Shown here: positions 6,455 to 31,637 of the stretch, piece after piece
How positions within the stretch are numbered: the first letter of the stretch is position 1
Layout: each line of letters opens with the position of its first letter
Source of the DNA: Oligoflexia bacterium
GTDB taxonomy: Bacteria > Bdellovibrionota > UBA1018 > CAIPTA01 > JAALKR01
DNA length: 42,432 nucleotides
Reading direction: 5' to 3'
Assembly (NCBI GenBank): GCA_011087955.1
Contig: JAALKR010000016.1
Coordinates: 1-42,432, forward strand
The notes under the pieces: model-generated
Seen by the model: the letters and a program-made list of their open reading frames with translations, nothing else
What the model was told of the DNA's origin: nothing
Database searches by the model: none
Translations under genes and position numbers: made by a program

Positions 6455-9400
6455 TTAGCGCTCTATTTCAATTGTTTCCCAGTTAAAATCACCCACGAAT
6501 TCTTTTGGTAAGAATATACCACGAGTCTTATCATTAAAGTCACGAATCTTTGAGTGGTAGTCGGAGCGAACTTTTCCTCGGAGTATGCTGGTACTAAAAT
6601 ACGGATCTAGCGATGTACGGAACCAGAGAGGTTTAGCACCTGCCATATGATTGATTTCATAGTCTTCGATCGCATCCTCAAAGGCCTCTATTAGACGAAT
6701 CTCCGTTTGAATTCTCCAAGTTACAGAGAAGTTAATATAGGAGAGGACTTCAGGATCAATATCTAAAAGTAACTCGCGTTCTTGTCGCTCCAAAGTCTTA
6801 TAGAACGTTTTTGCTTTTGACCAGTAGTTCATTCGTTGGTGGAATATCAAGTTCGTTAAATTTGTTGAATCATCTTCTGGCTTGTCACTAGAGCTCTTTT
6901 CTGCGCCAGGTCGAATCCCGCGGTACTCTGAGTACTTGCCTAAGTGATAAGCAGTCATGTAAGTATAAGCGTCGTCGGCCATTTCTATGATTATTGGGAC
7001 GCCTGAGGCATTATATTCAGAGAATAGATAAGTAGGCCCCTTACGAAGGCCATAGAAGGTGTTGTCATCGTAGTGTTCTAGGAGCTTTAAGTCAAAATCA
7101 GTCATACCATTGATGGATACATGTTTAATGGCTCGCTTTGATAAATCTAAAATACTTTTCGACTGAATACGCATTTGATTTTTCTCTTTGGCGATACAAG
7201 CATCATCACAGAGAGCACGCTTCTTCGGGTCGATTTCCGATTCGAATTTTAGGCGGTGAGCTGCTACTCTAGATTGAATTAGGCGGCGTATCTGTTGACT
7301 TACCGAGAATTGCCAATCGTAGAAGCTCGTCCATTTGTAGATACCAAGCTCTGAACCATCACTATTGGTAATATAGAGAATAGCACCGGTCTGGAAATTC
7401 TTTAGATTTTGTTCAAAAGAGAGCTCACTGCTTGGCATAAAGTCGATTTTGCGCTGCCAATCATCTTTTCCTCGTCTCCAATTCACAAAGTCAGCATAGA
7501 ATTCCTTATAGGTAGTAGGGTACTCCACTTCAATCATATCAGCCTCAAGCGACACACCCATTTCATTAAAGCCATGCTTGAGATAGTTGGCAAAACGAAT
7601 GGCAACATCATAGCCATAGTAAGAAAGGAAGTAGGAACCACGATTGTCTATACCAATGAGTGGCTCAAAATTTTTCTCATATCCAGATATCGCAGTAAAC
7701 GCTTTTGTGTAATGAGATTTTTCGTTTAGGAGTACGTTTATACTCGAGTAGAGATAGCCCGCGTCTGGCAGTTCAGTAAAGAATGGCTCTGACCAAATTC
7801 TTGCGTCTGGGTATTCATTGCGTAGCTGTAAGATAGGTTTGTTCTCATGCTCTAAGTTATTTAATGCATCGAGAGCGATGTAGACAATCCGAATAAATTC
7901 GAGTTCCATTTGAAGTAGCTCTGCCTGGCGCAAATGCTCTTCGCGATCAAGAGTTAGTAAGCAGTCAGTTATCGTACTGTCGAGAATATTGGAGCTTTGT
8001 ATGATTTCATTTCGAATGGAGGTGATAGCTTCAACTTCATCATTGATTAGTGGAAGCATGTCATTAAACGTAGTGAGCTTGCCCTTAATCTTGGCACCTT
8101 TGAATACTTTCGACATAATATTCTTAATTAACAAAATAGCTGAAAGGTGTGGATCCACGTCGGAGCGAATAATCTCCAGTGCCTCTGGAACTGCACTTTT
8201 ATAGTTTGCATTCCCTCCCAATACCTCTGAGAGCTTTGCTAAATTTGAAGATCTTTGGCTTAAGCGCCCACGGAAAGTCCACCTAAAAGCTTGCTTTGGC
8301 GATATTTTGGTTAGAATTGGTCGATAGGTACGCCCTTCGCGGAAATTCTTAACTTGCTTACACTCTTCCATAGTGCTTGTATAGAGTGTTACACTTTTTT
8401 CCTTATTTGGGCCGCTCCTTCCTAAATTGCCGCGTAATTTTTTCGACCAATCACGCAACACTTCTTTTTTTGGCAAGAGATAGGAATCAACAAATCGTTT
8501 GAACCAATCCAGCGGGTCTACACCATAGAGTTCAAATAGATTCAATTGCATAGCGAAGTAGATAGAGTACATCACTTCCACTTGATCAATGCCATCATTA
8601 TCGCCCTCATAGTTTGTAAAGCGGAATATTGGTGAAAGCGTACCTTTCAAATACTCTTGCAGAATGATATCGGCATTAATTTCAATCGAATCGCGAAAAA
8701 ACGGTATATAGATTTTTTCCTTATAGTTTAAGACTTTTGCGTAATATGCAAACATCAGTAGGTTCGGGTACGTAACAAGGTATTTTACATTTAGCGGGAG
8801 ATAATCGAAGAAGTCACGCATGCCAGCAGTTGCTGCAGCAATTTCTTTGTCGCCCGTTACGCCACTCAGGCGCCCGTCAATTTCGCCTTCGAAGAAAGAT
8901 CTGATGTTATTGACAGAGCGCCAGTATTCCATCCATAGAGGAGTAATTTTCCCGTCCGATAAACCACGAATCTGATGCATAAATTCTGAAGGATGTAGTT
9001 TTTCCGACTGTTCACTGCGATAGATGTTAGACATCGAAACGTTCGTTATGAGCGTATTATGAATCAAATGAACACGCATCATACTATCAAGTATTTCGAT
9101 CATCCGCTTACCATCTTTAGAAGTCGATTCCCAATAAGGGAGGACTTCTTCAAAGGAGGTATTTTGGTAGAGCAAAGAAGCGACATAGTAATAGATTTGC
9201 TCGTCTTTCGTCTCAAGCTTCGCTAAATCTACAGTCTTGATATTTAGTCGATTTAGTATTTTTTCGTCAAAATTTAGAATGTCCCAGATAGCCGCTGTGT
9301 AGGACTCTGCTTGTTCTGTTTGTAACATTAAATGGGAAGGGTCGGTAGATCTTGTCTCAGTCAATCGATCAATCGCTAACTGCTCTTGACATTTCAATGC

Positions 9401-10366
9401 GGACTGGAAAGACGGCCATAGCTGTTTTTCCTTCAGTCGAACAGAAATAAATTTTGTGATTACAAATGAGAATTGTGATCCTAATAAAGTTTCGATTTGT
9501 CGAGATTGCAACCAGGTAAATAACTCTAAGAGCATTTCCTGGCTGAGCCCAAGGTTTTCATAATGTGTAGAAGTTTGCATCGTGATAATCAAAAAATTGA
9601 TGAATTGTCCAAGTTCTTCCTTGCGAGCAGGTGTGAAGTCAATCGTAGTCATTCGTGCTGTTTTGCAGGTATCGCCCACATATTCCAAATTTATAAAACG
9701 GCGAATGTTTTCAATCGCGCGCGACATAATTAAAGAGGCGAGCTCTGGATTTTGACGGCCTGAATGAGGCTTAAAAATTAACTGGATATAGCGATAGTAA
9801 TTTTTTACGTCGAGATCTGTGTGTTTTACATATCGACGAATAATATCCGAAGTTTGACTGTCGGAAGAAAAAAACTCCAAGAACTTACAGTTTCTCCAAG
9901 TTCCTGTTTCACAACCAAATGTGTAAATTGAAATAAATTGGTCTATCAGTTCACGGCCTGTGGAGGAGAGGTTACCCGTCGCGTCCACTTGGGAATCAAT
10001 TAGCTGGATGGCTGAATACTGAAAGGCCCAAAGCGCTTTAGGTAAGTCGTGCTCGATCTTTCCTTTATAAGGGTCTTCTAGGAATTGAATATTAAAAAAG
10101 AGTTTGCTTAAAGGCAGTAATGATTTTTCTTGGTGATCTGCAAGGCTAAATAATTGAACGTCAGCCGTAAGTTCTTGGAGATCTAGTGCTAAGAGCTTCG
10201 CACGCATTTCTGCAGGAGATAAGGTTGTCTTCTTAGAAATAGCTTTTACTGTCGGTACTGGGCCGAGGTGAGGCGGTACAGAGTCGTTTGGCTTAGAACT
10301 ACAAGCGGTGAGACTTAATGCTACCACTAGGCTAATCGCAAATTTTAATGGACTATGCCGAATCAT
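6455..10366 (-). CDS. Giant lipoprotein of unknown function (third gene of block, 1303 aa)
   Basis: A lipoprotein signal peptide is clear: MIRHSPLKFAISLVVALSLTAC with lipidated Cys22. I recognise no catalytic motif or named domain. The mature protein is mostly helical by composition, rich in Tyr, Phe, Leu, Glu and Lys, with a few spaced cysteines (for example GCETGTWRNC). It is colinear with the preceding 1575-aa lipoprotein: LNIKTVDLAKL (374) matches LGIQNITRSDL (483), YLVTYPNLLMFAYY (529) matches YLVTTPLMLAMSYY (639), and DCLLTLDREEHLRQ (801) matches DCLERIRKAEDHRK (916). Constant offsets of 109-115 argue for common descent. GGAG lies about ten bases before the ATG; 47 bp separate it from the gene upstream, so it is probably the last gene of a three-gene operon. 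Likely periplasmic or outer-membrane anchored. Function unknown. Confidence 0.85.
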   Translation of the reverse strand: MIRHSPLKFAISLVVALSLTACSSKPNDSVPPHLGPVPTVKAISKKTTLSPAEMRAKLLALDLQELTADVQLFSLADHQEKSLLPLSKLFFNIQFLEDPYKGKIEHDLPKALWAFQYSAIQLIDSQVDATGNLSSTGRELIDQFISIYTFGCETGTWRNCKFLEFFSSDSQTSDIIRRYVKHTDLDVKNYYRYIQLIFKPHSGRQNPELASLIMSRAIENIRRFINLEYVGDTCKTARMTTIDFTPARKEELGQFINFLIITMQTSTHYENLGLSQEMLLELFTWLQSRQIETLLGSQFSFVITKFISVRLKEKQLWPSFQSALKCQEQLAIDRLTETRSTDPSHLMLQTEQAESYTAAIWDILNFDEKILNRLNIKTVDLAKLETKDEQIYYYVASLLYQNTSFEEVLPYWESTSKDGKRMIEILDSMMRVHLIHNTLITNVSMSNIYRSEQSEKLHPSEFMHQIRGLSDGKITPLWMEYWRSVNNIRSFFEGEIDGRLSGVTGDKEIAAATAGMRDFFDYLPLNVKYLVTYPNLLMFAYYAKVLNYKEKIYIPFFRDSIEINADIILQEYLKGTLSPIFRFTNYEGDNDGIDQVEVMYSIYFAMQLNLFELYGVDPLDWFKRFVDSYLLPKKEVLRDWSKKLRGNLGRSGPNKEKSVTLYTSTMEECKQVKNFREGRTYRPILTKISPKQAFRWTFRGRLSQRSSNLAKLSEVLGGNANYKSAVPEALEIIRSDVDPHLSAILLIKNIMSKVFKGAKIKGKLTTFNDMLPLINDEVEAITSIRNEIIQSSNILDSTITDCLLTLDREEHLRQAELLQMELEFIRIVYIALDALNNLEHENKPILQLRNEYPDARIWSEPFFTELPDAGYLYSSINVLLNEKSHYTKAFTAISGYEKNFEPLIGIDNRGSYFLSYYGYDVAIRFANYLKHGFNEMGVSLEADMIEVEYPTTYKEFYADFVNWRRGKDDWQRKIDFMPSSELSFEQNLKNFQTGAILYITNSDGSELGIYKWTSFYDWQFSVSQQIRRLIQSRVAAHRLKFESEIDPKKRALCDDACIAKEKNQMRIQSKSILDLSKRAIKHVSINGMTDFDLKLLEHYDDNTFYGLRKGPTYLFSEYNASGVPIIIEMADDAYTYMTAYHLGKYSEYRGIRPGAEKSSSDKPEDDSTNLTNLIFHQRMNYWSKAKTFYKTLERQERELLLDIDPEVLSYINFSVTWRIQTEIRLIEAFEDAIEDYEINHMAGAKPLWFRTSLDPYFSTSILRGKVRSDYHSKIRDFNDKTRGIFLPKEFVGDFNWETIEIER

Positions 10367-10413
10367 GCACTAATACTCCAAATCTCGTTCACTTTCACTG
10401 GGCGAGAGAAAGG

Positions 10414-13400
10414 CTACTCCTCGCTTCTTTCTGCTGCTCTCACTGTTTCTGTACGGCGCGCATTACGCTCGCGAGCTCTTCGTAAATCTGAATCCAGTTT
10501 CCAAGCCTCATAGCGAACATCACAATCTTGATCTGCGTCTTTTAGAGTTGTTTGCGTCGAAGCTTGTAGCTGCTTGAAGTCTGGATCATTTTCTGTCGGT
10601 AAGGCTTCACAAGCAGACTCCGCTACGAAGAAGCTTCTGGCCTTATTATAGAAGCCAGCCTTCACTGATTCTGGATCATCGCGAAGATAGAGGAATGAAT
10701 CTAAGCGTGATTCCTGATTTCCTTCTTTTCGAGTTTTAATTGGTACATATCTCCAAAGTGAAGGTCTCTCTAGACCATCACTGTTAACATCGGCCTCAAC
10801 AAAACGTTTGTTATCAAAATCATAGAAGGATGAGTCTGGAGAATTCTTATCTTTGCGCTGAAAGACAATTTGACCCAGGTCTGTCTTCGAGTCTTCAAGA
10901 TCCATAATATGTTCTTCAATTGACTCTGCACGACGTAAATGCTGCAAGATTGGTCTACGCACACGGTCTCGTTGCGTTTGTAGGACTGAATCGTTGAGCT
11001 CAAATAAGTGGTGCTCCGGCTTAAAATTATCTTTAATCGATCCACGGAAAACGCTAGCAAAGAAAGCAGAACCGTCGAGACGGTCTTTTTCAACGTACTC
11101 TAGCTTTGAGCCTCTACGCACAACGGCCCATGTTCGGGTAAAATTTCTTTGAAAGAATTTATCAAAGAAGGTCCAATCTTGAGAATCTTCTTTATCTTCC
11201 AGTTTAAACTGTCTTCCTACGTACTGGTGCAATCGACCTTCACGATTAATCCAGTTCAAGATCTCAATATCGTTTTCGTCCAAACGAAAGAAATCGGCAA
11301 ATTTTATGAAATAGTCGACTACATCTTTTGCTTTCACTGCAAAGATTTCACAACCAGGCTCTGCACCTTTCATTGTGCGATAGCCAAATTCATCCAGTGG
11401 GCAAAGCGAACGCTCACCTTGTGTGATCTCAATTGATCCTAGCTGGAACATACGAATTAGGTAGCTTAAGCGCTTCGGAATATACTTTAAGTCCGAACCG
11501 GATGGGCTATGCCATGAGACATACTGTATGCCCTCACGCTCGTCACCGGCGAACTGACCCATGGCCTCTTTAAGGAATGCAGTTTGCGAAGCATTTTCTG
11601 GGTAATACACTTCATTCGAAGCTGTGTCCTTATAAAGATGGTCATTGGCTAACTCGTCAATTGTCAGCATCGGAATATATAGATCGGGGGCAATAGGCAC
11701 TCGCTGATTTGAAGTGCGTCTGGCTTCGTATTCTGCCTCAGAAATGAGGTCAGCCGAAAAGTCAGCTTCCGCTGCATCCATATCCAAAGTTTGAAGCTGA
11801 CGACGAATCCTTACAAGTGTGTCCCATCTTGATTGTACGAAACGATCTGGGTAAATCTTATTTTTGCGCTTAATTTCTCTCTTATCGTAACTATAGAGAT
11901 CTGTTCCTGTAACAAAGAAGCCAAGCTCCTTTTGTAATCCACCGGGAAGCGTAGTCATAATTTCTTGGTGATTATGAATTCCAATGAAAGCACTTAACGC
12001 ATTCCTCAGCCACGGGGTGAAATTATCCGCCTTCAGCTCTTCCTTATGGAAGATTGTAACTGCTGGATTCTGCGTTATATCTGCATTGAAGAGGACGTGG
12101 GTGATGTCAAGCATACGACTTTTCGCATCGGCAAATCCATGCTCATCAATATAGGCTTGGTCTTTACCATCAATAGCAGCCGCATACCACTCATTCACTT
12201 TCGTTTCCAAAAGAGCTCTACCTGCGTTCAAAACGTCTAATGGTTCTGCAAGGGGTGTGACCTCAATCTTTCCACTTTGAGGTGCAACGCTTAGTAGAGA
12301 AATTGCCGCATGTGCATCTCGATAATAATCAAGGTTCGCATCATACAATATCTTTTTTCGATGGTCTTCTGCCTTACGAATTCGCTCTAGACAATCGCGT
12401 TCCTGGCTGACAATCATTTTATCAATATCGATAATACGACGCATGACTTGACGAGTTAGATCGTAGTATTCCTCCAATTCATTATTAATAGTGCTTTTGA
12501 TGGAATTTTTGACCGCCTCTTTTTCCGGTGAAAGCTCATATTTTTCCGAATCTAAATGGCGATACGCGATTTTCATTAAATCCCGGACATAGCGAATTTC
12601 TTGCTGCCAGTAACGGAAATAGCCAAGTCGACCATAGACTTTGGTCATATGATCCAAGAAGGAATCATCACCAACAAGAGTATTAGAGTAGAGCTTATCT
12701 ACAGAGAAATCCATAGGCGTAGTATAAGGGTTTTTACAGGCTGCCGAGAAGCGACCCACGTGATCCTGTACTTGGAGTAACTTATCCAGATCTGTAATTT
12801 GATCTCGGAAAGATCCTTTAAAGAACTTCAATACGTCGTGGAATAAGCGTTCAAAGAAGAGGTACTCATTGGCAAGTTCTGGATGATCGGCATTTACCAA
12901 GTGTGGGTACTTCGCCTTTAGCTTCGCAAGCATTTGCTGGTCTTCTTTTCGGATATCAAACGGGATAAACTCAAAAAGACCAGAACGGAAAGCTAAATCA
13001 AACGATTGTTGCTTCTGGAAATCGTCCATGCGAAACCAGTCAGAACCATAGCGGAAGAATAGAATCATTTTCGAACGTGGGTTAAAGAAGGTAGATAGTG
13101 CATTGGAGCTATCAATAGATAGGGTTTGGTCCTGCCCCGGCATCCAAGCAAATGTCACTACAATATTGTTTTCTGACTTTGCCATATAATAAGACATGGC
13201 TAGCATGAGTGGAGTAGTTACCAAGTAATCGATATGTGAGTTTAGCTTTTCTGTCGAAAGCTGTGTTTTCAGCTTTTTATAGTATTCAGCGACCTTTTTC
13301 TCTTCGTCATTACGAGCACCTTGTCCGTATTTCGAGTTATACGCCTGAATCAAGAAGTCATTGAGGAAGCTAATTCGCTTCTTCATAATTCTCCACTCTG

Positions 13401-15141
13401 AATCAGTAGAAGTATGCAAGTCATCGGCGACATCTTGGAAGAGGTCACCAGTCAAAGAATTATATTTCTTGTAGAAGAAACGAATCGATCGCCCTAGGTT
13501 CATCTGCGTTGTACGTAATAGGTATGCGATTTGCACCTTTACGTAGTTATCCATGAACTGCATGAATTCCATAGGAGTGATGCCTTCCATGCGGTTAAAA
13601 TATTCTCGTGCAAGATCCATATCTAGGCGCTCGTAGAAAATACCGTCAATGATATAATAAGCAAGGTCAGAACGAGTTATATTCTGAATGCCTAAGTTCT
13701 TCATGATATGTGGCTTAGTTGAAATAAAGTCCAATGCATAGACGTAGGATAAGTCGCGCACCGCAATTAGCTCAGTGTTCGTGAGCTGAGATATTTTGGC
13801 CAGTTCAATTTGTGCTTCTTTTTGGATGCGAGGCTCTTCATCTCTAACATAGTTAGAGATGAGAGTTTCTAAATTTTTCCGTTGGTCTGCACAGCTAATG
13901 AAGTCTTTAATAATTAAGTTAAGGTTAGGGTTCTCCTCTTCACCACCGGTGTAATAGGCATATGGTTTAGCATCGATCAAGTAATCACAGTACTCCGCAG
14001 AGTTTGCTGACTTGAGTAATCGAAGTGCGTCTCCAAGAAAATTCTGCCGAGTGCGGTATTCAGCGGCACGTTTTTCCTTCTCCGTTGCACTCAAAGATTG
14101 GAACCAAAGTGCATAGTCTTTTGTATAGCGAATATACTTGAGGTAGTAGTCAAGGTATTGAGAACCATTTAGACCACGATTGCCTAGTAGGAAATAATTA
14201 AAATATGCATTTGTCTCGGCAAAATATTGATCTTGCGCGTCCTTGCGCGCGCTAATGCAGTCTTTCCTAATTTTTTTACGAGTACGGACAATTGTGTACT
14301 CATATGTACATTCACTGGGATTAGCATTTTTTATAGAAGTAAAATCCGATATAGTCTGACTGGTTGCATGGAACTGAGCCTTGGCAGCAAGGAGACGCCT
14401 CTCCTGATTGTCTGCCATAGCAGTCATAAGCTTAACCGCCATATTGTCGCTAAGGTAAAAATCAGCGTTTGTACAACCCTTTAGCTCAGCATCACAATAG
14501 CGAAAAATTTGTGCTTCTAGTTGATTGAGATAAAAGAGTGTCGCTGAGTCTTCTGGATACTCCGTAACCATAACATTCAATGCTTGATTAAATAGGTGAT
14601 AAGCATCTCCCATTTCACGAGAACTCGCTGACCTGCGATTGCTAATAAATCGCTGCTTGAGAATATAAGGCGCAGTTGTCCGGAGCATGGTAATTAGGCC
14701 TCTGCGATTTTCCTCACGTGCGGCGACTAAATCGTCATAGTTATCATCCGGATTGGCTTCATCGGATTCCGAACTGGCTGCATCGGATTCCGAGTTGGTT
14801 CCACTGGATGCTGAGTTCAAAAGCGCAAGAGTAGGTTTTGCCTTTATGGTCTCGATTTTTGCAGAAATCTCAAATCGCTGCTCACGAATCTGTCTCAAAG
14901 ATAGGGATTTATACGGAATAGAAGCAATTCCTGATTTTTCTATCAGAGTCAGGCGAGAACCGGAAACCGTAGCCGCTGATTCCAATAGAGCACTCAGATT
15001 TTGTCCGCCCGAGGAACCGATGGACAAGGCGCCTTTATGCCTTGGTCGGTGAGCTTCTTTTGAATTACAAGCGGCGAGTCCAAAGGTGAGGACTAGAGCA
15101 CTTGCGACTGCTTTGATTAGTTTCGCATTAAGATATTGCAT
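10414..15141 (-). CDS. Giant lipoprotein of unknown function (second gene of block, 1575 aa)
   Basis: The start is ATG at 15141: the sequence MQYLNAKLIKAVASALVLTF then GLAAC gives a textbook lipobox with Cys25, and GAGGA lies about ten bases upstream. A longer frame reaching 15270 would overlap the preceding gene and put 43 unrelated residues before the signal. Behind the lipid anchor comes a Ser/Glu/Asp-rich linker (around residues 115-140, encoded partly by a 21-bp repeat). The rest is long, helix-rich and Tyr-rich, ending in a charged Arg/Glu tail. No HExxH, serine-protease, kinase or glycosidase motif is visible, and I do not recognise the family. It is a distant paralogue of the following 1303-aa lipoprotein. 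Only 20 bp separate it from the metalloprotease gene upstream, so the two are almost surely co-transcribed and perhaps co-translated. Confidence 0.87.
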   Translation of the reverse strand: MQYLNAKLIKAVASALVLTFGLAACNSKEAHRPRHKGALSIGSSGGQNLSALLESAATVSGSRLTLIEKSGIASIPYKSLSLRQIREQRFEISAKIETIKAKPTLALLNSASSGTNSESDAASSESDEANPDDNYDDLVAAREENRRGLITMLRTTAPYILKQRFISNRRSASSREMGDAYHLFNQALNVMVTEYPEDSATLFYLNQLEAQIFRYCDAELKGCTNADFYLSDNMAVKLMTAMADNQERRLLAAKAQFHATSQTISDFTSIKNANPSECTYEYTIVRTRKKIRKDCISARKDAQDQYFAETNAYFNYFLLGNRGLNGSQYLDYYLKYIRYTKDYALWFQSLSATEKEKRAAEYRTRQNFLGDALRLLKSANSAEYCDYLIDAKPYAYYTGGEEENPNLNLIIKDFISCADQRKNLETLISNYVRDEEPRIQKEAQIELAKISQLTNTELIAVRDLSYVYALDFISTKPHIMKNLGIQNITRSDLAYYIIDGIFYERLDMDLAREYFNRMEGITPMEFMQFMDNYVKVQIAYLLRTTQMNLGRSIRFFYKKYNSLTGDLFQDVADDLHTSTDSEWRIMKKRISFLNDFLIQAYNSKYGQGARNDEEKKVAEYYKKLKTQLSTEKLNSHIDYLVTTPLMLAMSYYMAKSENNIVVTFAWMPGQDQTLSIDSSNALSTFFNPRSKMILFFRYGSDWFRMDDFQKQQSFDLAFRSGLFEFIPFDIRKEDQQMLAKLKAKYPHLVNADHPELANEYLFFERLFHDVLKFFKGSFRDQITDLDKLLQVQDHVGRFSAACKNPYTTPMDFSVDKLYSNTLVGDDSFLDHMTKVYGRLGYFRYWQQEIRYVRDLMKIAYRHLDSEKYELSPEKEAVKNSIKSTINNELEEYYDLTRQVMRRIIDIDKMIVSQERDCLERIRKAEDHRKKILYDANLDYYRDAHAAISLLSVAPQSGKIEVTPLAEPLDVLNAGRALLETKVNEWYAAAIDGKDQAYIDEHGFADAKSRMLDITHVLFNADITQNPAVTIFHKEELKADNFTPWLRNALSAFIGIHNHQEIMTTLPGGLQKELGFFVTGTDLYSYDKREIKRKNKIYPDRFVQSRWDTLVRIRRQLQTLDMDAAEADFSADLISEAEYEARRTSNQRVPIAPDLYIPMLTIDELANDHLYKDTASNEVYYPENASQTAFLKEAMGQFAGDEREGIQYVSWHSPSGSDLKYIPKRLSYLIRMFQLGSIEITQGERSLCPLDEFGYRTMKGAEPGCEIFAVKAKDVVDYFIKFADFFRLDENDIEILNWINREGRLHQYVGRQFKLEDKEDSQDWTFFDKFFQRNFTRTWAVVRRGSKLEYVEKDRLDGSAFFASVFRGSIKDNFKPEHHLFELNDSVLQTQRDRVRRPILQHLRRAESIEEHIMDLEDSKTDLGQIVFQRKDKNSPDSSFYDFDNKRFVEADVNSDGLERPSLWRYVPIKTRKEGNQESRLDSFLYLRDDPESVKAGFYNKARSFFVAESACEALPTENDPDFKQLQASTQTTLKDADQDCDVRYEAWKLDSDLRRARERNARRTETVRAAERSEE
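14754..14795. repeat. 21-bp tandem repeat in the Ser/Asp-rich linker
   Basis: Two 21-bp units (14754-14774, 14775-14795) share the core CATCGGATTCCGA. On the minus strand they encode a repeated heptapeptide of the type SESDxAx in the flexible linker of the 1575-aa lipoprotein, about 90-115 residues after its lipidated cysteine. Confidence 0.85.
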
Positions 15142-15161
15142 CGTTTTGTTGTCCTCGCTAA

Positions 15162-18100
15162 TTACTGTAGATCTTTTTCCATGTAATCCAACATGTCTAG
15201 GAACATGTAGCCGTTCATGGCGGAAGCTGCCATTACCAGCACTTTCTGACCCCGTAGAGCTGCTGTACAAGCGTTTGGATCTGGTTTCGTGTTGAGCACT
15301 TTTAATCCATCGGCGCCTTCATTAGCCTCATACAAATCGAAATATGTACGTACGGATTCATGGAATTCATTACGAGACGTTTCGTGTTCATAAATCGTAT
15401 CTGGAAAGTCGAATCCAGGGAATTTCTTCTTTGAGATACTGTCATTGAAGTAGTACTTTAGGCCGGAACGTTCTTTGCCTTCAATGCAAGCCTTCATTGT
15501 CTTATAGTAACGAGATTCGAGCGTCCTTCGCACGGAGTGAGTCTTCAGACGATCGAAATAATCATCTTCGTAATCCAGTTTGATAATCCAGTAGTAACCA
15601 CCAGACTTTGAATACCAACGGATGTCAGAATATGGCAGAATCAAAGAACCAGACGGTGGGATTATAATCGTTCGGTTTTCCCGATACATATAGATTTCGG
15701 GAATTTGCTCCGAACCACGACCCCAGAGGTTATAGATTGAGCCTTTGAACTTACGAACTTTTTGCTCATTCGTCTTGTCTCGTAGTGCATTAATTTCAAC
15801 CGCTGCCCAATTGTATTTATAATTCGCTTGTGAACGCAGGTTCTTCGTATATTGCGTTGGCACGTCCAGGGCATCGTTGGAAAAATAATTGAATGGGAGT
15901 AGGAATCCAAGAGTTTGAACTGCTTTACCAATAGCAGTACGCTTAGATTGGCCGATATTAGCGAATGTTATGTTTTGTGCCACCGTACCAGCAAGGGCCT
16001 CTGTATACTCCTTGGGGTAAAGCGTATTCATTAAGAACATACCGTCGTTACTCGTATACTGCGTAATCGGAAATACCCAGCCTGCCCAAGATACGTATGG
16101 GAATGGAAGAGTAAGAGTATAGAGTGCAGGAGTCTTGATTGGCATACGTGAAAGCTCTTTCCACTTACCAAAGGCAGCGCCCCAGCTCATACGGCCTTCA
16201 CCACCGAAAATTGAGTAGGAGATATAGCGATCAAAACGGTCGATGAAATTATAGTCCGGACCAGACATCTGCAAATAATCATTTAACTCGCTGATAAATA
16301 ATTTTGAAGCCTGACAGAGAGATTTAATTTCCTGCGATTCTGGTGTGTCAGAGTGGAACAATTCGTAAAGTGCTGGGTTATCAATTTCAGCGCGGTCTAC
16401 ACCATCTTGGCACGCTTTAGAGAATTGCAAGAAGGTCTTAATCTTTTTATTTTCACCTACGCCGTTGAGGACGTAAGCAATTTCAGAATCGAATTTTTGG
16501 CGCATGTAATCGTAAAAAACTCGTGCGCGACCAAAAGTGCGCAGTGAGTTCACCCATAAACGGTACTGCTGCCAAGATGGATGTTCGGACTCTTTTCCGT
16601 CTGTAAAGGCATAAATTGATTTTGTGATCTGTGCTTTATAGTCATCTAAATAGGACTGAGTCAGCGTCAAGGCATCATAGCCACGATCCCAACGATTACA
16701 GTATGGATCATAGGACATTGAAGCCGTGAAATCGTTACAGTGAGGAAAATAGGAAAGCTTATATGGTTCAGATTGAGCGTTTATCATGATCTTATTTTGT
16801 GCCCGTAATTCTTCTTCTGCAGTTCGCATGTCCGGCACGATCATTTCTTTTTCGCTCTGGGAGCACTGATTAAAATCTGTAAGTGATGCAGACTGTGGAT
16901 TTATACCTTTATCTAAACTACAGTCATTGTAAGTGACTCGTACAAGTTGCTTATGGATAATGCCGTCCTCACCAAGCTTGGCAAATTTGAAATCAGTATC
17001 AGCAGCGGCTACCTTTACTGCATCATTTGGAATTGCCGGGTACTCCTGGTTATAGAGGTAACGAAGTACTAACTCATCCATCGGGCCGGGCTTGAGGTCA
17101 TCGTAGTCAGTGATAACGTCTGTGACGCCGTTCTTATAACCCATAACCGTAGTGTAGTTTATCATGTCATGGTTTTTGGCACGATCGATAAGGCCGCCTT
17201 TGCCATCTAGGTATTTACTAGGAACTGTTCCGCGCTCTGGCAGTATGTTTTCCTTAAAGTTGTGACCCAAGCCAATCATATGGCCCACTTCGTGGAGGAG
17301 TAGGTCTTTGGCAAATGGGCGAAGTGCTTCAATTTTGTTTTTGCCGTAGCGTTCAAAACCCATTTGGTATTGTAGAGCTACCTGGCTAGCTTTACGGTCC
17401 ATATCAAAGGCGGCGGCACTCACTCCCGTACCAGCAATTGTCTTACCTAGATGTTCAGCAGCAACGGCTTTGGTAAGGGGTAGGCCTTTGCTAATAAATG
17501 CTTCTTTCTCCTTTGGCGAGCGGAATGGAAGACTGTCAGCAGACTCTTTGAGCGTAGGAAATCCAATTAATTTTTGGAAATTATCAAAATTGAAAAATTC
17601 CTGTCGAGATGGATAATTTCTATGCTCGTGGTGAAATTTGTTTGCTTGGGCGATAAAATCTTTGGCCAAGATGTCCACATAGCCATTTTCACCGTTTAGA
17701 GCACGAGTCACTTCGCTAAGCTGACGGGCAATGTCAGTGTTAATGTTAAGTCTATCAAGCAGATTATTTCCACCTTGAGCAATGGATAAATCGACAGAGC
17801 GGTCGTCTACTGTAATCATGAGCCTTCCGTCTGGAATACTGTTGCCAGAACCAGTTTCGAAACGATAACGCTCTAAATCCTCAAAAATTGCGGCTTCTGA
17901 GTGTTCCATGATCAAGGAACGAACTGGATTGTGAGAAGCAAAATCAGAGGCGTCGTTAAAGACCTTTTCCATCGCCTCCAAGCGAGCCGTCATGTCCTGC
18001 GGAAGCGCTTCCATCAAGTTCTTATAATGGAGCAAGGATTCTCGCTTAGAGCGAAGGGCCTCACGAACCATTTCGCGTGCATCCTCACGACTTGGAGTTT

Positions 18101-19499
18101 CTATTAAACGCTCCGGAACCACACTGTGGTTCGGCCCAAACTGGCGACTTTCTGGCTCTGCCAAGCTCAATTGTACAATTGGTTTACTGTTGTGACCGTA
18201 GGCTTCTGCCATGGCAGAAGTGGATTCTACAGGGCTATAGCGGTTAACAATTTTTTCGAGCAAACCACCCCAAACAGTGACGCCGCCCCAAAGGACTTTG
18301 CCATTGCGAACGTCGGCAGCAATCATACCCACACCAAGTGGTGCGTACATGGAGGTTTCTATGTCGTCAACCCAGGTAATGCCTGGATAGCGCAAATCAA
18401 ATGTATATTTAGCGCCATCCCGATAAGCTATCTCGAACGGACGACCGTGGCCAATCTTCTCAAAGGTGTCATTCCAGTGATTAATAACGTCTTTACCAAT
18501 TTGCTTATAGGCGCGAGGGAAATTATTTAAATGGATTGTATGCTTTTTACGCGTGTCCCATTTTGCCGCATATAGGATTTGGTCATTACCATTGACCTTT
18601 TCACCCATGATATGCAGCACGTTAAGGTGTTTGGCATTACGTTGATTATACGGTGTTTGTTTAAAGCTTGGGTCATGCTTAAACTCTAAGAAGTTGAAAC
18701 GGAATCGACCCTGCATGCGAGACCCATAAAGGCCATGAGTTGCAGTCAGAGTGAAACCTAAGAAATTATTTTCATAGTCCCATTCGATATCTTCAATTTT
18801 ATCCACATCATGGCCGCCCCAAAACAGATCCATCGCCCATTCTTTGATTTTCATGCCGCGAAGGTCTAGTGTCATAGAAGGTCGTTGTGACCAGTGGTCT
18901 TGGCTAGTGTTTTCAATATACTTCGATTTCTGTTCGCGGCCGTACTTATCTCTCGGGTGCTCGTAGTGGTAGTGCTTCGTGATTGGGATTGTGATGACAT
19001 TAGGCCATAGAGAGCGATCATCTACCTTTGAAGGAATGACCATGCGGCCAACTAGCTCATTTTCAGTAATTGTGAATTCGATATTACAGTGTTCTGCATA
19101 GTTGTAGTGGTCAAATATGTAGTTACCCCACTTTCCCGCAGTCGATTCTGGTGACCAACCACAGAGGAATGTTCTGGGCTTGAGAACTGTCTTAGAAACC
19201 TCTTTCCAGCCATTGTTCTTAGCAAATTTGCTTAGTTTTGGTTGTTCATGCTCTTGGGCCAATAAATTGCCTTTATCTCGTACAAGGAGATTAAGCTTTC
19301 GAGCCGTATCGATTGTAACCTTCGTGCCCTGATTTTCATTTGTATAGAAAGTTTGAGTGATGATCGTTTGGAAAAAGCTCTTACCAACACCGAACTCTGT
19401 AGGAACTGGTTGCTCCTCCGGCGGTGTTATGTAGGAACAGCTTGCCAAGGTTAGGGTAATAAAGAGTAAGGGAGAAAGTGACTTAAATAATCTAATCAT
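15162..19499 (-). CDS. Lipoprotein zinc metalloprotease, metzincin type (DUF5117/DUF4953-like), 1445 aa
   Basis: A lipoprotein signal peptide (MIRLFKSLSPLLFITLTLASC, lipid on Cys21) precedes a very long mature protein. Residues 736-746 read HEVGHMIGLGH, the metzincin zinc motif HExxHxxGxxH with catalytic Glu737. Met786 in TTVMGY, 40 residues later, fits the Met-turn. The preceding segment ('HWNDTFEKIGHGRPFEIAY', 'WVDDIETSMYAPLGVG', 'DVRNGKVLWGG') is the layout of the large zinc-dependent metalloproteases with DUF5117 and DUF4953 known from Bacteroidetes and proteobacteria. About 650 residues follow the catalytic core with no motif I recognise. It probably cleaves proteins at the outer membrane or cell surface. 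It is the first gene of the lipoprotein block; a possible promoter lies about 75-100 bp upstream. The 3' end is 20 bp from the next gene. Confidence 0.85.
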   Translation of the reverse strand: MIRLFKSLSPLLFITLTLASCSYITPPEEQPVPTEFGVGKSFFQTIITQTFYTNENQGTKVTIDTARKLNLLVRDKGNLLAQEHEQPKLSKFAKNNGWKEVSKTVLKPRTFLCGWSPESTAGKWGNYIFDHYNYAEHCNIEFTITENELVGRMVIPSKVDDRSLWPNVITIPITKHYHYEHPRDKYGREQKSKYIENTSQDHWSQRPSMTLDLRGMKIKEWAMDLFWGGHDVDKIEDIEWDYENNFLGFTLTATHGLYGSRMQGRFRFNFLEFKHDPSFKQTPYNQRNAKHLNVLHIMGEKVNGNDQILYAAKWDTRKKHTIHLNNFPRAYKQIGKDVINHWNDTFEKIGHGRPFEIAYRDGAKYTFDLRYPGITWVDDIETSMYAPLGVGMIAADVRNGKVLWGGVTVWGGLLEKIVNRYSPVESTSAMAEAYGHNSKPIVQLSLAEPESRQFGPNHSVVPERLIETPSREDAREMVREALRSKRESLLHYKNLMEALPQDMTARLEAMEKVFNDASDFASHNPVRSLIMEHSEAAIFEDLERYRFETGSGNSIPDGRLMITVDDRSVDLSIAQGGNNLLDRLNINTDIARQLSEVTRALNGENGYVDILAKDFIAQANKFHHEHRNYPSRQEFFNFDNFQKLIGFPTLKESADSLPFRSPKEKEAFISKGLPLTKAVAAEHLGKTIAGTGVSAAAFDMDRKASQVALQYQMGFERYGKNKIEALRPFAKDLLLHEVGHMIGLGHNFKENILPERGTVPSKYLDGKGGLIDRAKNHDMINYTTVMGYKNGVTDVITDYDDLKPGPMDELVLRYLYNQEYPAIPNDAVKVAAADTDFKFAKLGEDGIIHKQLVRVTYNDCSLDKGINPQSASLTDFNQCSQSEKEMIVPDMRTAEEELRAQNKIMINAQSEPYKLSYFPHCNDFTASMSYDPYCNRWDRGYDALTLTQSYLDDYKAQITKSIYAFTDGKESEHPSWQQYRLWVNSLRTFGRARVFYDYMRQKFDSEIAYVLNGVGENKKIKTFLQFSKACQDGVDRAEIDNPALYELFHSDTPESQEIKSLCQASKLFISELNDYLQMSGPDYNFIDRFDRYISYSIFGGEGRMSWGAAFGKWKELSRMPIKTPALYTLTLPFPYVSWAGWVFPITQYTSNDGMFLMNTLYPKEYTEALAGTVAQNITFANIGQSKRTAIGKAVQTLGFLLPFNYFSNDALDVPTQYTKNLRSQANYKYNWAAVEINALRDKTNEQKVRKFKGSIYNLWGRGSEQIPEIYMYRENRTIIIPPSGSLILPYSDIRWYSKSGGYYWIIKLDYEDDYFDRLKTHSVRRTLESRYYKTMKACIEGKERSGLKYYFNDSISKKKFPGFDFPDTIYEHETSRNEFHESVRTYFDLYEANEGADGLKVLNTKPDPNACTAALRGQKVLVMAASAMNGYMFLDMLDYMEKDLQ

Positions 19500-19880: not shown

Positions 19881-20235
19881 AACACACAATATGTTGTGGT
19901 GGTGGGGAAAAAGAAAAAATATGCGTGCCCTACGTGTTCAGAATGTATGAAGCAAGCGAGGGCTGAAAGTATTTTGCCTGGGACGATCGCAACAAGTGAA
20001 CTCCTCTCTTACATTATCTTCTCGAAGTTCTTTCAGGGTTTACCACTGTATCGTCTAGAAGAGCTCTTGGGGTTCCCCAGGCCTGAGCTCGAAGGTTTTA
20101 TGAGTAGCGGCAAAAATTAATGGTAAAGATCCGTACCAGGTATTGAAAACAGTTTTTGACCTATTATCCAAAGCAGAAACGATCGATGAATACGAGAAGC
20201 TGGCTGATGTTTTGATCGTCGTGTGGAACGGATAG
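19881..20235 (+). pseudogene. tnpC: IS66-family transposase (tnpC) remnant with an internal deletion
   Basis: Two pieces of an IS66 TnpC-type transposase remain. The first (to about 20105) contains the zinc-finger start (KKKKYACPTC), then ILPGTIATSELLSYIIFSKF and LPLYRLEELLG, which correspond to the IS66 zinc-finger and the beginning of the DDE domain. The second, in another frame (about 20107-20235), reads AAKINGKDPYQVLKTVFDLL and AETIDEYEKLADVL, matching the extreme C-terminus of IS66 transposases (NGxxPxxYLxxVLxxLPxA pattern). The middle with the catalytic DDE residues is gone and the frames differ, so it is inactive. A short open stretch just before it (to TGA at 19878-19880, ending NPKWLAEFLRAFES) may be the tail of the accessory tnpA gene, but that is uncertain. 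Confidence 0.75.
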
Positions 20236-26742: not shown

Positions 26743-26809
26743 TCAATTGACAAAGTAGCGTTTCTTGGTAGCTTTCACAAGAAAATTTGTATCTGTGAAT
26801 TATCTTCGT

Positions 26810-26820
26810 GGGGGGGGGGG
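26810..26820 (+). repeat. Homopolymeric run of 11 G in the ribosome-binding region of the subtilase
   Basis: Eleven consecutive G lie five bases before the ATG at 26826, exactly where the Shine-Dalgarno sequence should be. No other SD-like motif is present. Changes in run length would alter SD strength and spacing; such tracts are classic sites of slipped-strand phase variation. An upstream GTG at 26808 is in frame through the run only at this length. Confidence 0.9.
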
Positions 26821-26825
26821 CTATT

Positions 26826-29800
26826 ATGAGGATCATTATCAAGACTGCCTTGGTGGAAGCACGGTATAAAGGGAGATTTTATTTTCTAGTTCTAGTTCTA
26901 GTTCTAGTTCTAGTGCTAGTCACTTTAAGTGCGTGTTCAGAGTCACAAGAGAGCACCGGCTCGGGTTCGACGGTTTTGGTTTCGGCAGATCGCGCTACTG
27001 AAGACTCACCTGCAAGTACGGAAGATAATCCGTCCGTGATCGCCAAAGACCTAAAAACGATCTTGCAAGAACACGAACTTTTTAAATACCCAGATTTAAC
27101 TTTTTTAATCGCGGTAAAGGACGCGCAGTTTTCTGCGGCGAAGATTCGCCAAGTCGGGGGCGTAGTGACCTACGACCCAAACCACGGTAATGGGTCTGAC
27201 ATTCCATTCTTGATTGCAACTTTGCCTCCGGACAAAGTCGTCGACGTAGAGTTTGTGCGTAACCTAGGTGTTTTGGCTATGTCGGTAGATCACCCGAGTG
27301 TTCGTCGAATCGTGCCTAATGCCTCAGCTCTTCCCCCTTTTGGTGATAATCCGAATCATTTCATTCCATACAAAGAGGTTGGTGTGGAACGTCTGCGTTC
27401 CGCTGGCTCCGGCCGGGCGCTTGGAGAAGGCACCATCGTTGCTGTTATCGATACTGGCGTAGATGCCTCACACCCTGTTTTTGAAAATCGAGTGATTTAT
27501 TGGGCCGACCAAACCCAAGAAACACGCACTACTCTCACTCCAGTAGGGCCGCCCAATAAAGGTGTAGTGGAAGTTAACGGTAAGCAGTGGCAAGTGCCAG
27601 CTGCTATTGCAAGTTCAGAATCTTTGTTTGTTGCTATAATTTCGGAAGCAGCCATGGCTGCACAAATTAATGACCTTGATAGGGTGCAAGGTTTGGAAGG
27701 ACTAGATTTCAATCGCAACGGTGTATTGACCGATACCTATGCGGCTCTAGTTGGGTTTGATGGTGAAAACTGGTTGGTATTTGTCGATACGGATGCGGAT
27801 GGAGAACTGTCGACGCCTGAAGCTGAAGTGGGTGTGGTTGATTTCAACGTAGCTCGTGCTGGGGCAGATGGAAACGTGGCTACAAATACGGTTACAAATC
27901 TAGTAGATCTGTTGAAGCTTCCAGGCCGTTCGAATAGGATTGCTTATCCAGTTCTGCTGACGATGGAGGAAAATAAGCCAAAGGATCTACAACTCGGCGT
28001 GGATTTTGGTTCTCATGGTACCCACGTAGCAGGCTCAATTGCGGCAAACGGGGCTTACATTAGGGGTGCGGCACCAAAAGCAAAAATCATGGCTCAAAGA
28101 GCTTGCTCTGGGGTTTCATGTACGGAGTCGGCAATTCTTCGTGCACTAGTGGATACGTTTTATAATGATGCTGGCTTAACCCCGGATGTAGTGAATATCT
28201 CTCTAGGTTCACCCGAACAATATCGCCAAGACGTTTTTAATTATTTAATGCGTGATCTGGCAGCTAAATTTGGGGCGGTCTTTTTCATATCGGCCTCCAA
28301 TTCTGGACCGGGCTATCGCACGATCAATTCCTTTGGATCCTTTGGGCCGGTAGTACAGGTTGGTGCACATGTTTCAAAAGAAACAATGGAGAAACATTAT
28401 AATTTGCAGCCAGGCACAGAAGTTCCAGCAGATAACCTCCTATCTTTCTCATCGGTCGGTCCATCCTATACGGGTCAATTGCGTCCGAATATTGTGGCTC
28501 CTGGGTCCTCTCAGTCCTCCACGGCCATCATTGATGATTTATCGAGCATGTATAATGGAACAAGCATGAGCTCTCCTCTAGCTGCCGGTGCGACAGCCGC
28601 GATGATTTCGTTGCTTAAGCAAGACTCGGAATACGCTTTCTTTGAAGAGTTAAAAGCGGCCAAGCGAGATGAAATCTTTGCAGGTATGGAAAATACGCTA
28701 GGCTCTCTGTCCTTTTTCCCACTGGCCGTTCGATCGAGTTTAGAGTCTACAGCTACTCGAATGAACCACTTGACGATTACGCAGCAGGGACATGGTCTAA
28801 TTGACGTGCATAGGGCTTACAATAATCTGAAGAGCAAGATGGCGAGTTTGCAGGAAGATAACGTTCGTAGTGGGCGCTATTTTGATATTTCGTTGAATGG
28901 CTCTGCGAAGAATAGGCGACTTTATCGCCGTGACCTTGAGGTACAAGCCGTACGACAGATAACGCTAGATCTGGAGGTTGATGGAGAAGAGCGCATCTCC
29001 GATCGACAGACTATTCGTTCGAAGGCAACGAACGTTCGCTTAGTGCAGGTGGAGGTCCAGGCCCCAAGTGGAGAAGTTGTTCGCACTGCAGTTCAACATG
29101 AAAGTGATCTGGCTAAGGTTCCATTTTCGATTGCAAAGCAGGGGCAATCGGGATCACCGAAAATTTCTCAGGAACTAGTGCTCGGTAATCCTTTGAAGAA
29201 GTCCCTGTTTTCGGTTCGAAACCTTTCCAAGATGGAGCCAGGCTACACGTATATCGCTCACTACGCTGTAGACCGCGGTCGGGAGCGAATATATTCCTTT
29301 GTGGACGTAGTACATATGCCGATCGAGCTTTCTATTCTTGCACGTCGGGTGCATGTGCCGGGAATTGGTCCAGCGACAGATAAGAAAAAATTAGCCTTTG
29401 TGAAATCAAATACTGCAATTGAGGCAAATGGCTTCCACCGCTATTTTATCGCAGTCACAGAAGCAGATCATGCACTCTCCTTGAAGCTTGGTTTCCATCC
29501 AGGCCAGGAAGGTGTGCTTTATATGCAAGTGTATAGTCCAGATGGACGTCAGCTTGGTTTCGAGTGGGCTTCCCTTTCACCGCAGCTTTCGCGAGAGAAG
29601 CCGCTTGCGGAGATGTCTTTGTCTGAGCTGAAACCTGGCATTTATGAAGTGGTTATTTCTGCAGCCTCTGGTCGCTGGATGCAAGCGACGGCTTATGATT
29701 TGCTTTTGCAGGCGCATCGCTTTGGCACAAAGACCAAGCTTATTAAGCTTTTTTCTGCAAATTCTGGAAAGTCAAAGATTGTATCTTTTGTTAATTCTGC

Positions 29801-30425
29801 AGAACAAGTGCATTCGATTCGAAATGCAACCGTGTGGGGGCTTTCTCAGGCGTTCCGCTTTCAAAATGTGAAGGTTAAGCCTAACTTCTGGTCCTATCAA
29901 CCGGTGGTGCTTCCAGTTAAGACGGATGGCAGAGCTCAGTCTGATCTGGTGGTTCAAATCGCAGGTGCAGGGGGCGGATTCTTTGGGCGCTTAGACCACA
30001 GACTCTTTGAGCTCGCTGATGATGGGGAGTTTCAAGAAATTGCAAAAGCTAGTACACAAGGAGTGAGTCGTGGTTCTAAGACCTTCAAAGATATTAAACT
30101 CAGTGTTTCAGATGCGGATTTAAGAGTTGTCTATTTTGCGCTTGAGACCTATGGGGTCGTTCCGGAGGTGGGGGGCTTGCCAGGGGTGAAAGATAGCGTT
30201 GTTATGGACGTGAAGCTTCCACAACTTAAGTTAGGCACTGGAGCGATGAGGATTCGTTCCAAAAAAGTAGCAGATAATTTATTTACGGTTAGCCTAGGTT
30301 GGGATGGTGTGATGCCAGCAGCCACTGTGAATGATTCAGCGGTTGTGGCGAGTGGTACGTTTATTGTGGCTACAGATCGGCCTGGTGTGGATGCAAGAAT
30401 TCCAGTCCTCCTCCTACAGAAGTAG
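26826..30425 (+). CDS. Large lipoprotein subtilisin-family serine protease, tripeptidyl-peptidase II-like
   Basis: 1199 residues from ATG 26826. A lipoprotein signal ends in TLSAC (lipid on Cys37); its hydrophobic core is (Leu-Val)6, encoded by a hexanucleotide repeat. The S8 catalytic triad is Asp209 (AVIDTGVD), His397 (GSHGTHVAGS) and Ser580 (GTSMSSPLAAG), with oxyanion Asn492 (SASNSGPG). The spacing of about 190 residues between Asp and His, far longer than in subtilisin, is a trait of TPP II-like peptidases. The insert has two calcium-loop-like motifs: DFNRNGVLTD at 294 and DTDADGELSTPE at 321. About 600 residues of beta-rich sequence follow the catalytic domain. Likely surface or periplasmic proteolysis. 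TTGACA at 26747-26752, just after the metH stop, may be a -35 box, but no good -10 is seen. GTG 26808 is an alternative start. Confidence 0.88.
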   Translation: MRIIIKTALVEARYKGRFYFLVLVLVLVLVLVTLSACSESQESTGSGSTVLVSADRATEDSPASTEDNPSVIAKDLKTILQEHELFKYPDLTFLIAVKDAQFSAAKIRQVGGVVTYDPNHGNGSDIPFLIATLPPDKVVDVEFVRNLGVLAMSVDHPSVRRIVPNASALPPFGDNPNHFIPYKEVGVERLRSAGSGRALGEGTIVAVIDTGVDASHPVFENRVIYWADQTQETRTTLTPVGPPNKGVVEVNGKQWQVPAAIASSESLFVAIISEAAMAAQINDLDRVQGLEGLDFNRNGVLTDTYAALVGFDGENWLVFVDTDADGELSTPEAEVGVVDFNVARAGADGNVATNTVTNLVDLLKLPGRSNRIAYPVLLTMEENKPKDLQLGVDFGSHGTHVAGSIAANGAYIRGAAPKAKIMAQRACSGVSCTESAILRALVDTFYNDAGLTPDVVNISLGSPEQYRQDVFNYLMRDLAAKFGAVFFISASNSGPGYRTINSFGSFGPVVQVGAHVSKETMEKHYNLQPGTEVPADNLLSFSSVGPSYTGQLRPNIVAPGSSQSSTAIIDDLSSMYNGTSMSSPLAAGATAAMISLLKQDSEYAFFEELKAAKRDEIFAGMENTLGSLSFFPLAVRSSLESTATRMNHLTITQQGHGLIDVHRAYNNLKSKMASLQEDNVRSGRYFDISLNGSAKNRRLYRRDLEVQAVRQITLDLEVDGEERISDRQTIRSKATNVRLVQVEVQAPSGEVVRTAVQHESDLAKVPFSIAKQGQSGSPKISQELVLGNPLKKSLFSVRNLSKMEPGYTYIAHYAVDRGRERIYSFVDVVHMPIELSILARRVHVPGIGPATDKKKLAFVKSNTAIEANGFHRYFIAVTEADHALSLKLGFHPGQEGVLYMQVYSPDGRQLGFEWASLSPQLSREKPLAEMSLSELKPGIYEVVISAASGRWMQATAYDLLLQAHRFGTKTKLIKLFSANSGKSKIVSFVNSAEQVHSIRNATVWGLSQAFRFQNVKVKPNFWSYQPVVLPVKTDGRAQSDLVVQIAGAGGGFFGRLDHRLFELADDGEFQEIAKASTQGVSRGSKTFKDIKLSVSDADLRVVYFALETYGVVPEVGGLPGVKDSVVMDVKLPQLKLGTGAMRIRSKKVADNLFTVSLGWDGVMPAATVNDSAVVASGTFIVATDRPGVDARIPVLLLQK
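26884..26919 (+). repeat. Hexanucleotide repeat (TTCTAG)5 plus TGCTAG in the signal peptide
   Basis: Five perfect TTCTAG units (26884-26913) plus one degenerate unit (26914-26919). In the reading frame they encode alternating Leu-Val in the hydrophobic core of the subtilase signal peptide (residues 21-32). Gain or loss of units stays in frame and changes core length two residues at a time. Confidence 0.95.
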
Positions 30426-30563
30426 AGAGGGCATAGAAGTGGAGAAGGCAGAAAGTAATCGCCAACGACTGATCATTAATTGCATGCTGGCAAATGATTT
30501 TGAGTTCTAGGTTGCTTAAACGCTGCGGTTGACGGTTGCTATACAGAAGGGTATGGCAATAGC

Positions 30564-31637
30564 ATGGCACGGCAGAAGGATATAGCGTTTCAGATTATGA
30601 CCGTAGAGGTAGAGCCTTGGTGGGAAGAGCTAACCGACGAGGAGCTACTTAAGGTGCGGCTTTGTGAGCTGGATTTGGACTTAGAGGGGACCTGGGTCGA
30701 GCGAGCATTTACTCAGGTGAAAACCCAATTGGCCGGCCGTGGCCTTGGCAAGCTCAACCCTTCTATTTGGCTCTCGACGGACTGGTTTTGCCCTGATGAG
30801 CATGCGGGCTTTGCTGTTCCTTTCTACCTTGTTCATCCTCGATTAGCGGTTTTGACAGAGGCGGTGTTGGGGGAAGCGGAAGGAGCTAATTGGGAATGGT
30901 GCTTGAAGTTAATGCGCCATGAACTCGGGCATGTAGTAGAGAATGCTTATCCTAAAGTAGCAAAATCGGCTCTGCGAGAATCGGTCTTTGGTTCAAACTC
31001 TGTACCCTATCCCAAGACCTATACGCCTAAGCCTTACTCAAGAAACTACGTTCGTCACCTAGAAGCCGGATATGCTCAAGCACATCCCACGGAAGACTTT
31101 GCTGAAACCTTTGCTGTTTGGCTGACGGGTCGAAAAATTTGGTTGGACAGGTATGCGAGTGGGGTGCCTCATTTAAAACTAAAAACGATTGAGGCTTTGA
31201 TAGAGCACTTTGTTTATGGGAGTGCTCCTCGGGGTTTTCGATGTAGTTTTGAGCCTTTGCATCGTTCTAAAGAGACCCTGGGTCAGTTTTTGCGTGCAAG
31301 ACTTTGTAAACTCGGTTGCCATGAAGAGTTTCATCGAGAGCGCCAGTACGAGCTTTCATTAGATCGGATCATCGGGGAGAAACACTCCTTTTCAGCTAAG
31401 CGGATTTCCGAGCTTTGGCGAGCCGAGCAGAAGCAACTGGTAGAGCGATTGCAGAAAGAGTTTCAAATTCCTCGATACCAAGTGAAAGCAGCTGTACAAC
31501 CCATAAGTGCGCAGATCCATGAGCGTCGTAATTTATATGTTTTCTGTGATCGCATAGCAACAAACGAGCTCTATCGCTTGGCGAGGAGCGCCTGTCGGCG
31601 CTATCATAAAGGTAGGGAGCATCAGATACCGATATGA
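30564..31637 (+). CDS. Putative zinc-binding metallopeptidase (HELGH) coupled to an ATP-grasp gene
   Basis: 357 residues, no signal peptide, so cytoplasmic. His119-Glu120 and His123 in RHELGHVVE form the HExxH zinc motif, and Glu181 in PTEDFAETFAVWL is a good third ligand; this layout is that of the 'putative zinc-binding metallopeptidase' group of gluzincin-like proteins, whose substrates are unknown. The C-terminal 100 residues are basic and helical. Its TGA overlaps the ATG of the ATP-grasp gene (ATGA), which indicates translational coupling and a shared task, such as trimming and ligating a peptide or peptide-like molecule (inference). The start is not fully certain: ATG 30564 has AGAAGGG some 12-15 bases upstream; ATG 30597 is possible. 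Confidence 0.75.
   Translation: MARQKDIAFQIMTVEVEPWWEELTDEELLKVRLCELDLDLEGTWVERAFTQVKTQLAGRGLGKLNPSIWLSTDWFCPDEHAGFAVPFYLVHPRLAVLTEAVLGEAEGANWEWCLKLMRHELGHVVENAYPKVAKSALRESVFGSNSVPYPKTYTPKPYSRNYVRHLEAGYAQAHPTEDFAETFAVWLTGRKIWLDRYASGVPHLKLKTIEALIEHFVYGSAPRGFRCSFEPLHRSKETLGQFLRARLCKLGCHEEFHRERQYELSLDRIIGEKHSFSAKRISELWRAEQKQLVERLQKEFQIPRYQVKAAVQPISAQIHERRNLYVFCDRIATNELYRLARSACRRYHKGREHQIPI

Follow-up and report, generated by a model that had tools for sequence, protein, structure and literature searches.

Three giant lipoproteins encoded in succession on a contig of an Oligoflexia bacterium of the phylum Bdellovibrionota raise the question of whether they constitute one functional unit and, if so, what such a unit might do. 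The window, meaning the entire stretch of 42,432 nucleotides that was analysed, carries the three genes on its minus strand. Gene A (15162..19499), encoding a lipoprotein metzincin protease of 1445 aa, is followed by gene X (10414..15141), encoding a large, mostly alpha-helical (by prediction) lipoprotein of 1575 aa, and by gene Y (6455..10366), encoding a second large lipoprotein of 1303 aa; profile scores identify X and Y as the first and second paralogue, respectively, and Y follows X as it does in all other copies. The length of X is counted from its ATG, the mechanical open reading frame from an upstream TTG comprising 1618 aa. The intergenic gaps, likewise on the minus strand, amount to 20 bp between the stop codon of A and the ATG of X (15142..15161) and 47 bp between X and Y (10367..10413), with the ribosome-binding-like sequences GAGGA and GGAG located before the ATG of X and of Y, respectively. 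Each protein possesses a signal peptide and a lipobox, LASC in A (Cys21), LAAC in X, and LTAC in Y, and the lipobox with its cysteine is also present in most relatives. The earlier note on this DNA had described three lipobox proteins of these lengths, lying head to tail with these gaps, and the reading frames, gaps, and lipoboxes were all confirmed. A scan for promoters and terminators returned sites no more numerous than those in shuffled sequence.

Judged from its HExxHxxGxxH zinc site and Met-turn, A is a metzincin. Residues 736-746 read HEVGHMIGLGH, and H736, E737, H740, and H746, as well as M786 and Y788 of the Met-turn VMGY (M786-x-Y788), are invariant in 31/31 aligned relatives, which bears out the complete metzincin motif and the Met-turn candidate previously noticed in the first protein. 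The zinc ligands, catalytic Glu, Met, and Tyr are invariant in 22/22 long-type A copies as well. A passes the Pfam family DUF4953 (PF16313) weakly, on the active-site motif, with 28.2 bits against a cut-off of 24.2 and a best stretch consisting of 19 active-site residues, and 25 of the 31 aligned relatives match this family at E 0.01 or better. Pfam detected neither DUF5117 nor DUF5118 in the 31 A-type proteins and no known accessory domains in A, and PF17162 had no match in the window's genome. Among solved structures, the A profile matches metzincins only, from the active site to the Met-turn and weakly (E 0.01-0.08). The structure model of A is of low confidence (pLDDT 64), and its fold search against the PDB, with only weak matrix-metalloprotease matches at E of about 1.5, is uninformative owing to the weak model. 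Conservation along the protein is high at residues 101-450, 701-850, and 901-1445 and low at 451-700, and a Pro-rich motif lies just after the lipidated Cys.

X and Y had been called paralogous in the earlier note, a relationship that is invisible to BLASTP (window X versus window Y, not significant, best E 0.075) but correct by profiles. In hhalign, X and Y profiles built from the other genomes align with a probability of 100% and E 3e-101 over 1062 columns, while either profile aligned with A remains under 4% probability. With models built without the window sequences, window X reaches 304 bits against the X profile, matching it over about 1300 residues, and 127 bits against the Y profile; window Y, over its full length, reaches 245 bits against the Y profile and 240 against that of X. 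These profile comparisons indicate that X and Y are real, old, full-length paralogues. Among the 324 ORFs of module loci, no other ORF was matched by the X/Y profiles. No family match for either protein was found in Pfam or NCBIfam, TPR and other Pfam solenoid or repeat models included, and a sequence search of the PDB produced chance matches only; X/Y define a protein family without a known relative in Pfam, NCBIfam, or the PDB.

Besides the lipidated one, four Cys of X/Y are invariant in 12/12 aligned sequences. The AlphaFold2 model of the 1177-aa X of locus L005 (mean pLDDT 75) predicts a mostly helical fold for X that includes a 74-residue helix. A likeness of this fold to exportins and other HEAT proteins, considered by Foldseek against the PDB, was rejected as generic helical solenoid similarity, with TM of about 0.1 and rmsd of about 38 A. 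Across all loci, the lipidated Cys of most X and Y is followed at a distance of about 10-11 residues by a His, often with a Glu behind it, and this motif, together with the Pro-rich motif of A, suggests a common docking or sorting signal. In E. coli, Asp at position +2 of a lipoprotein is an inner-membrane retention signal; the same residue occupies this position in a few of the X and Y lipoproteins, which tells against the outer-membrane reading given below.

Between copies, mean identity is 33.0% for A, 19.7% for X, and 15.9% for Y, so that X and Y diverge faster than A, which fits the expectation for substrate-facing parts and could equally be compatible with weak constraint. Rapid evolution is also typical of surface proteins, and this, along with the strict linkage of A with X/Y and the lipid anchors of both X and Y, would suit a different explanation in which X and Y are substrates of A, namely giant adhesin-like or scaffold-like surface proteins cleaved or matured by the protease, with the predicted barrel S described below as their outer-membrane anchor. 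However, X and Y are mostly alpha-helical over their length in the model, match no adhesin domain in Pfam, and revealed no conserved cleavage-like linker, and this explanation is considered unlikely.

Whether the three genes belong together was addressed in a survey of 369 genomes of Bdellovibrionota. X/Y are present in 21 of these, distributed over six families and 15 genera; long-type A occurs in all 21, and X/Y never occur without it. Where a junction lies on one contig, the two genes share a strand, with A ahead of X in 22/22 copies and X ahead of Y in 21/21. Such recurrence places the A-X-Y arrangement far beyond chance, and of the two outcomes that the earlier note had named as speaking against its proposal, a known family for the large proteins and an unconserved gene order in relatives, neither was encountered. 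Distances and trees between copies are congruent (A-X r 0.87, A-Y 0.83, X-Y 0.94; 0/1000 permutations as high), which implies that the parts are inherited as a unit, and the window copy and that of G306a are sisters in the A, X, and Y trees. The window's 1.8-Mb genome contains three copies of the module, occupying about 2% of its length. The genus g73, probably Bdellovibrio and represented by many single-contig genomes, possesses only distant A-like proteins and no X/Y; if g73 is indeed Bdellovibrio, predation does not in general require the module.

X/Y and long A were found in none of the 57 searched class and order relatives of the window's genome. Misbinning of the window contig was considered and rejected on its tetranucleotide profile, which correlates with the genome centre at r 0.97, the closest of all sampled contigs, although the window is also the longest and hence least noisy stretch in that sample; related modules from other genomes reach 0.58-0.78. 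Given this typical composition, contamination is a less likely explanation of the module's presence than horizontal gain or differential loss. Further along the window lies an RND pump of the AcrB family (37442-40504), which shares 58% identity with a protein of G309 and 56% with one of G103, both genomes outside the class, and about 32% at best with the class relatives tested, making horizontal transfer of the pump possible from its sequence. Additionally, a subtilase of 1205 aa is followed by a Peptidase_Mx protein of 357 aa (26808-31637, plus strand), so that the window, with A, holds at least three different predicted proteases. The absence of the module from the 57 relatives, the outside affinity of the RND pump, and a degraded IS66 transposase remnant upstream of A (19900..20110, plus strand), a weak match to PF03050 with E 5.7e-4 and below the cut-off, would agree with A, X, and Y being mere neighbours that travel on a mobile island with no joint function. 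Congruent trees, an order that is invariant over six families, multiple divergent copies that all keep the set, and a fourth gene, S, that is kept elsewhere in the genome when missing from the cluster make this very improbable.

S is a gene of about 280-450 aa that separates X from Y in 13 of 21 copies. In the window's own genome, copy b (L087/L134) and copy c (L088) read A-X-S-Y. The S genes form one family, characterised by a signal peptide, strands in alternation, and a C-terminus that is mostly aromatic; of 16 members, one matches the Pfam model OMP_b-brl (E 9e-4). On these sequence features S is predicted to be an outer-membrane beta-barrel; its profile matched no PDB chain. A strong S is present in 20/21 module genomes, the exception being G345, which is 74% complete, and in G163 and G324, beyond the 21 genomes, a fragment of A lies next to S where a contig ends. 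In G308 and G309, S is far from the module, standing alone at L127:6693-7907 and L126:8171-9385, respectively, and the three A-X-Y copies of G309, none with its own S, may share the stand-alone gene. In eight copies, that of the window among them, S is missing from the interval separating X from Y; the barrel may therefore be dispensable, or one barrel may be shared. A six-frame search found S absent from the window copy. In the nearest related copy (G306a; L105), S lies just upstream of A instead of between X and Y, the position taken in the window by the IS66 remnant, and loss of S from the window copy by insertion is possible on this evidence. The interpretation of the earlier note is partly supported: synteny, co-occurrence, and congruent trees speak for a functional unit, but the note had missed S as well as the other two copies that the window's genome carries.

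A barrel gene accompanying a protease and predicted helical arms near the outer membrane brings to mind BepA, an M48 metalloprotease of E. coli (PMC7950410, PMC8423444) that acts on LptD at the BAM complex (PMC8423444). By analogy, the set could carry out quality control of outer-membrane proteins in the periplasm, or their assembly, X and Y then being arms that work like chaperones, and the combination of a metalloprotease with helical arms at the outer membrane is perhaps a true likeness. Unlike BepA, A is a metzincin that matches metzincin families rather than M48, and the arms here are separate giant lipoproteins without a TPR match in Pfam. Furthermore, a module found in only 21/369 genomes, with up to three divergent copies per genome, does not resemble housekeeping envelope biogenesis, and a BepA-like role is held to be quite unlikely.

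Other genomes of the phylum contain unaccompanied A-like proteases of 840-1580 aa (L077-L086, e.g. L082:5986-11697), which often adjoin a barrel-like gene remotely related to S, with neither X nor Y present. In a profile comparison of S with the barrel family found beside short A-like proteases, the two align at 97.3% and E 2e-11, a value to be read with caution because barrels resemble each other. Plausibly, the module began as an old pair of barrel and protease and acquired X and Y afterwards.

The linkage of A, X, and Y, together with S, as one functional unit is strongly supported by the genomic evidence, and their joint retention and evolution make it probable that they constitute a single machine for handling protein in the cell envelope. 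The reading preferred here, with a probability of roughly 0.5, is that A, X, Y, and S constitute one envelope machine at the outer membrane, in which X and Y act as arms that capture substrate for A. A, X, and Y would be lipid-anchored at the outer membrane; the two paralogues, as arms of mostly alpha-helical structure that probably operate in a pair, would capture polypeptide substrates and hand them to the metzincin active site of A, which would do the cutting; and S would anchor the assembly in the outer membrane or provide a route in or out. The physical complex, its membrane side and topology, its substrate, and the capturing role of X and Y are presumed in this scheme. More tentatively, and with some doubt, the set may represent an undescribed four-part outer-membrane proteolytic machine, combining a lipid-anchored metzincin with a barrel of its own and with two giant solenoid lipoproteins that have a new fold and pair as a heterodimer, which takes apart and imports external or prey protein, or remodels the envelope, and which evolved from a simpler barrel-protease pair still found elsewhere in the phylum.

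In the open-access literature searched, which is incomplete, no described system of A-X-Y(-S) composition was found, in agreement with the earlier note, which knew of none, and neither DUF4953 nor DUF5117 was mentioned. The set appears from its sequences to be an envelope metalloprotease with new partners, a gene set so far undescribed in that literature. With the DUF4953 Met-zincin family (PF16313), A shares HExxHxxGxxH and the Met-turn, but it matches only around the zinc motif, without DUF5117/DUF5118, and differs from it further: some 280 aa of variable sequence separate its N-terminal domain from the active site, its C-terminal part includes an additional conserved region of more than 500 aa, and X and Y are its fixed partners. 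Serralysins and astacins have M-x-Y at the Met-turn. A has it too and resembles the serralysin, astacin, and archaemetzincin branches from the active site to the Met-turn, whereas the likeness is confined to this catalytic core and A differs in size and lipid anchor. SusCD/RagAB-type systems for nutrient uptake at the outer membrane consist of a barrel and lipoproteins. The set described here likewise comprises a predicted barrel and lipoproteins, possibly handling peptides, but S, at about 290 aa, is too small for a TonB-dependent transporter, and the Pfam models of this type (TonB-dependent transporter, SusD/RagB) had no match in A, X, Y, or S. PopA of Bdellovibrio is a plugged, 16-stranded outer-membrane barrel (PMC12228718); a word search of that paper gave no link to a metalloprotease. 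PopA, from a predatory relative, has the outer-membrane barrel nature that is predicted for S, but the S profile matched no PDB chain. Three hypothetical giant proteins here become a defined, widespread module with a fourth partner. If this module is a substrate-capturing protease complex, it would give Gram-negative bacteria of the Bdellovibrio phylum a novel means of dealing with protein at the outer membrane.
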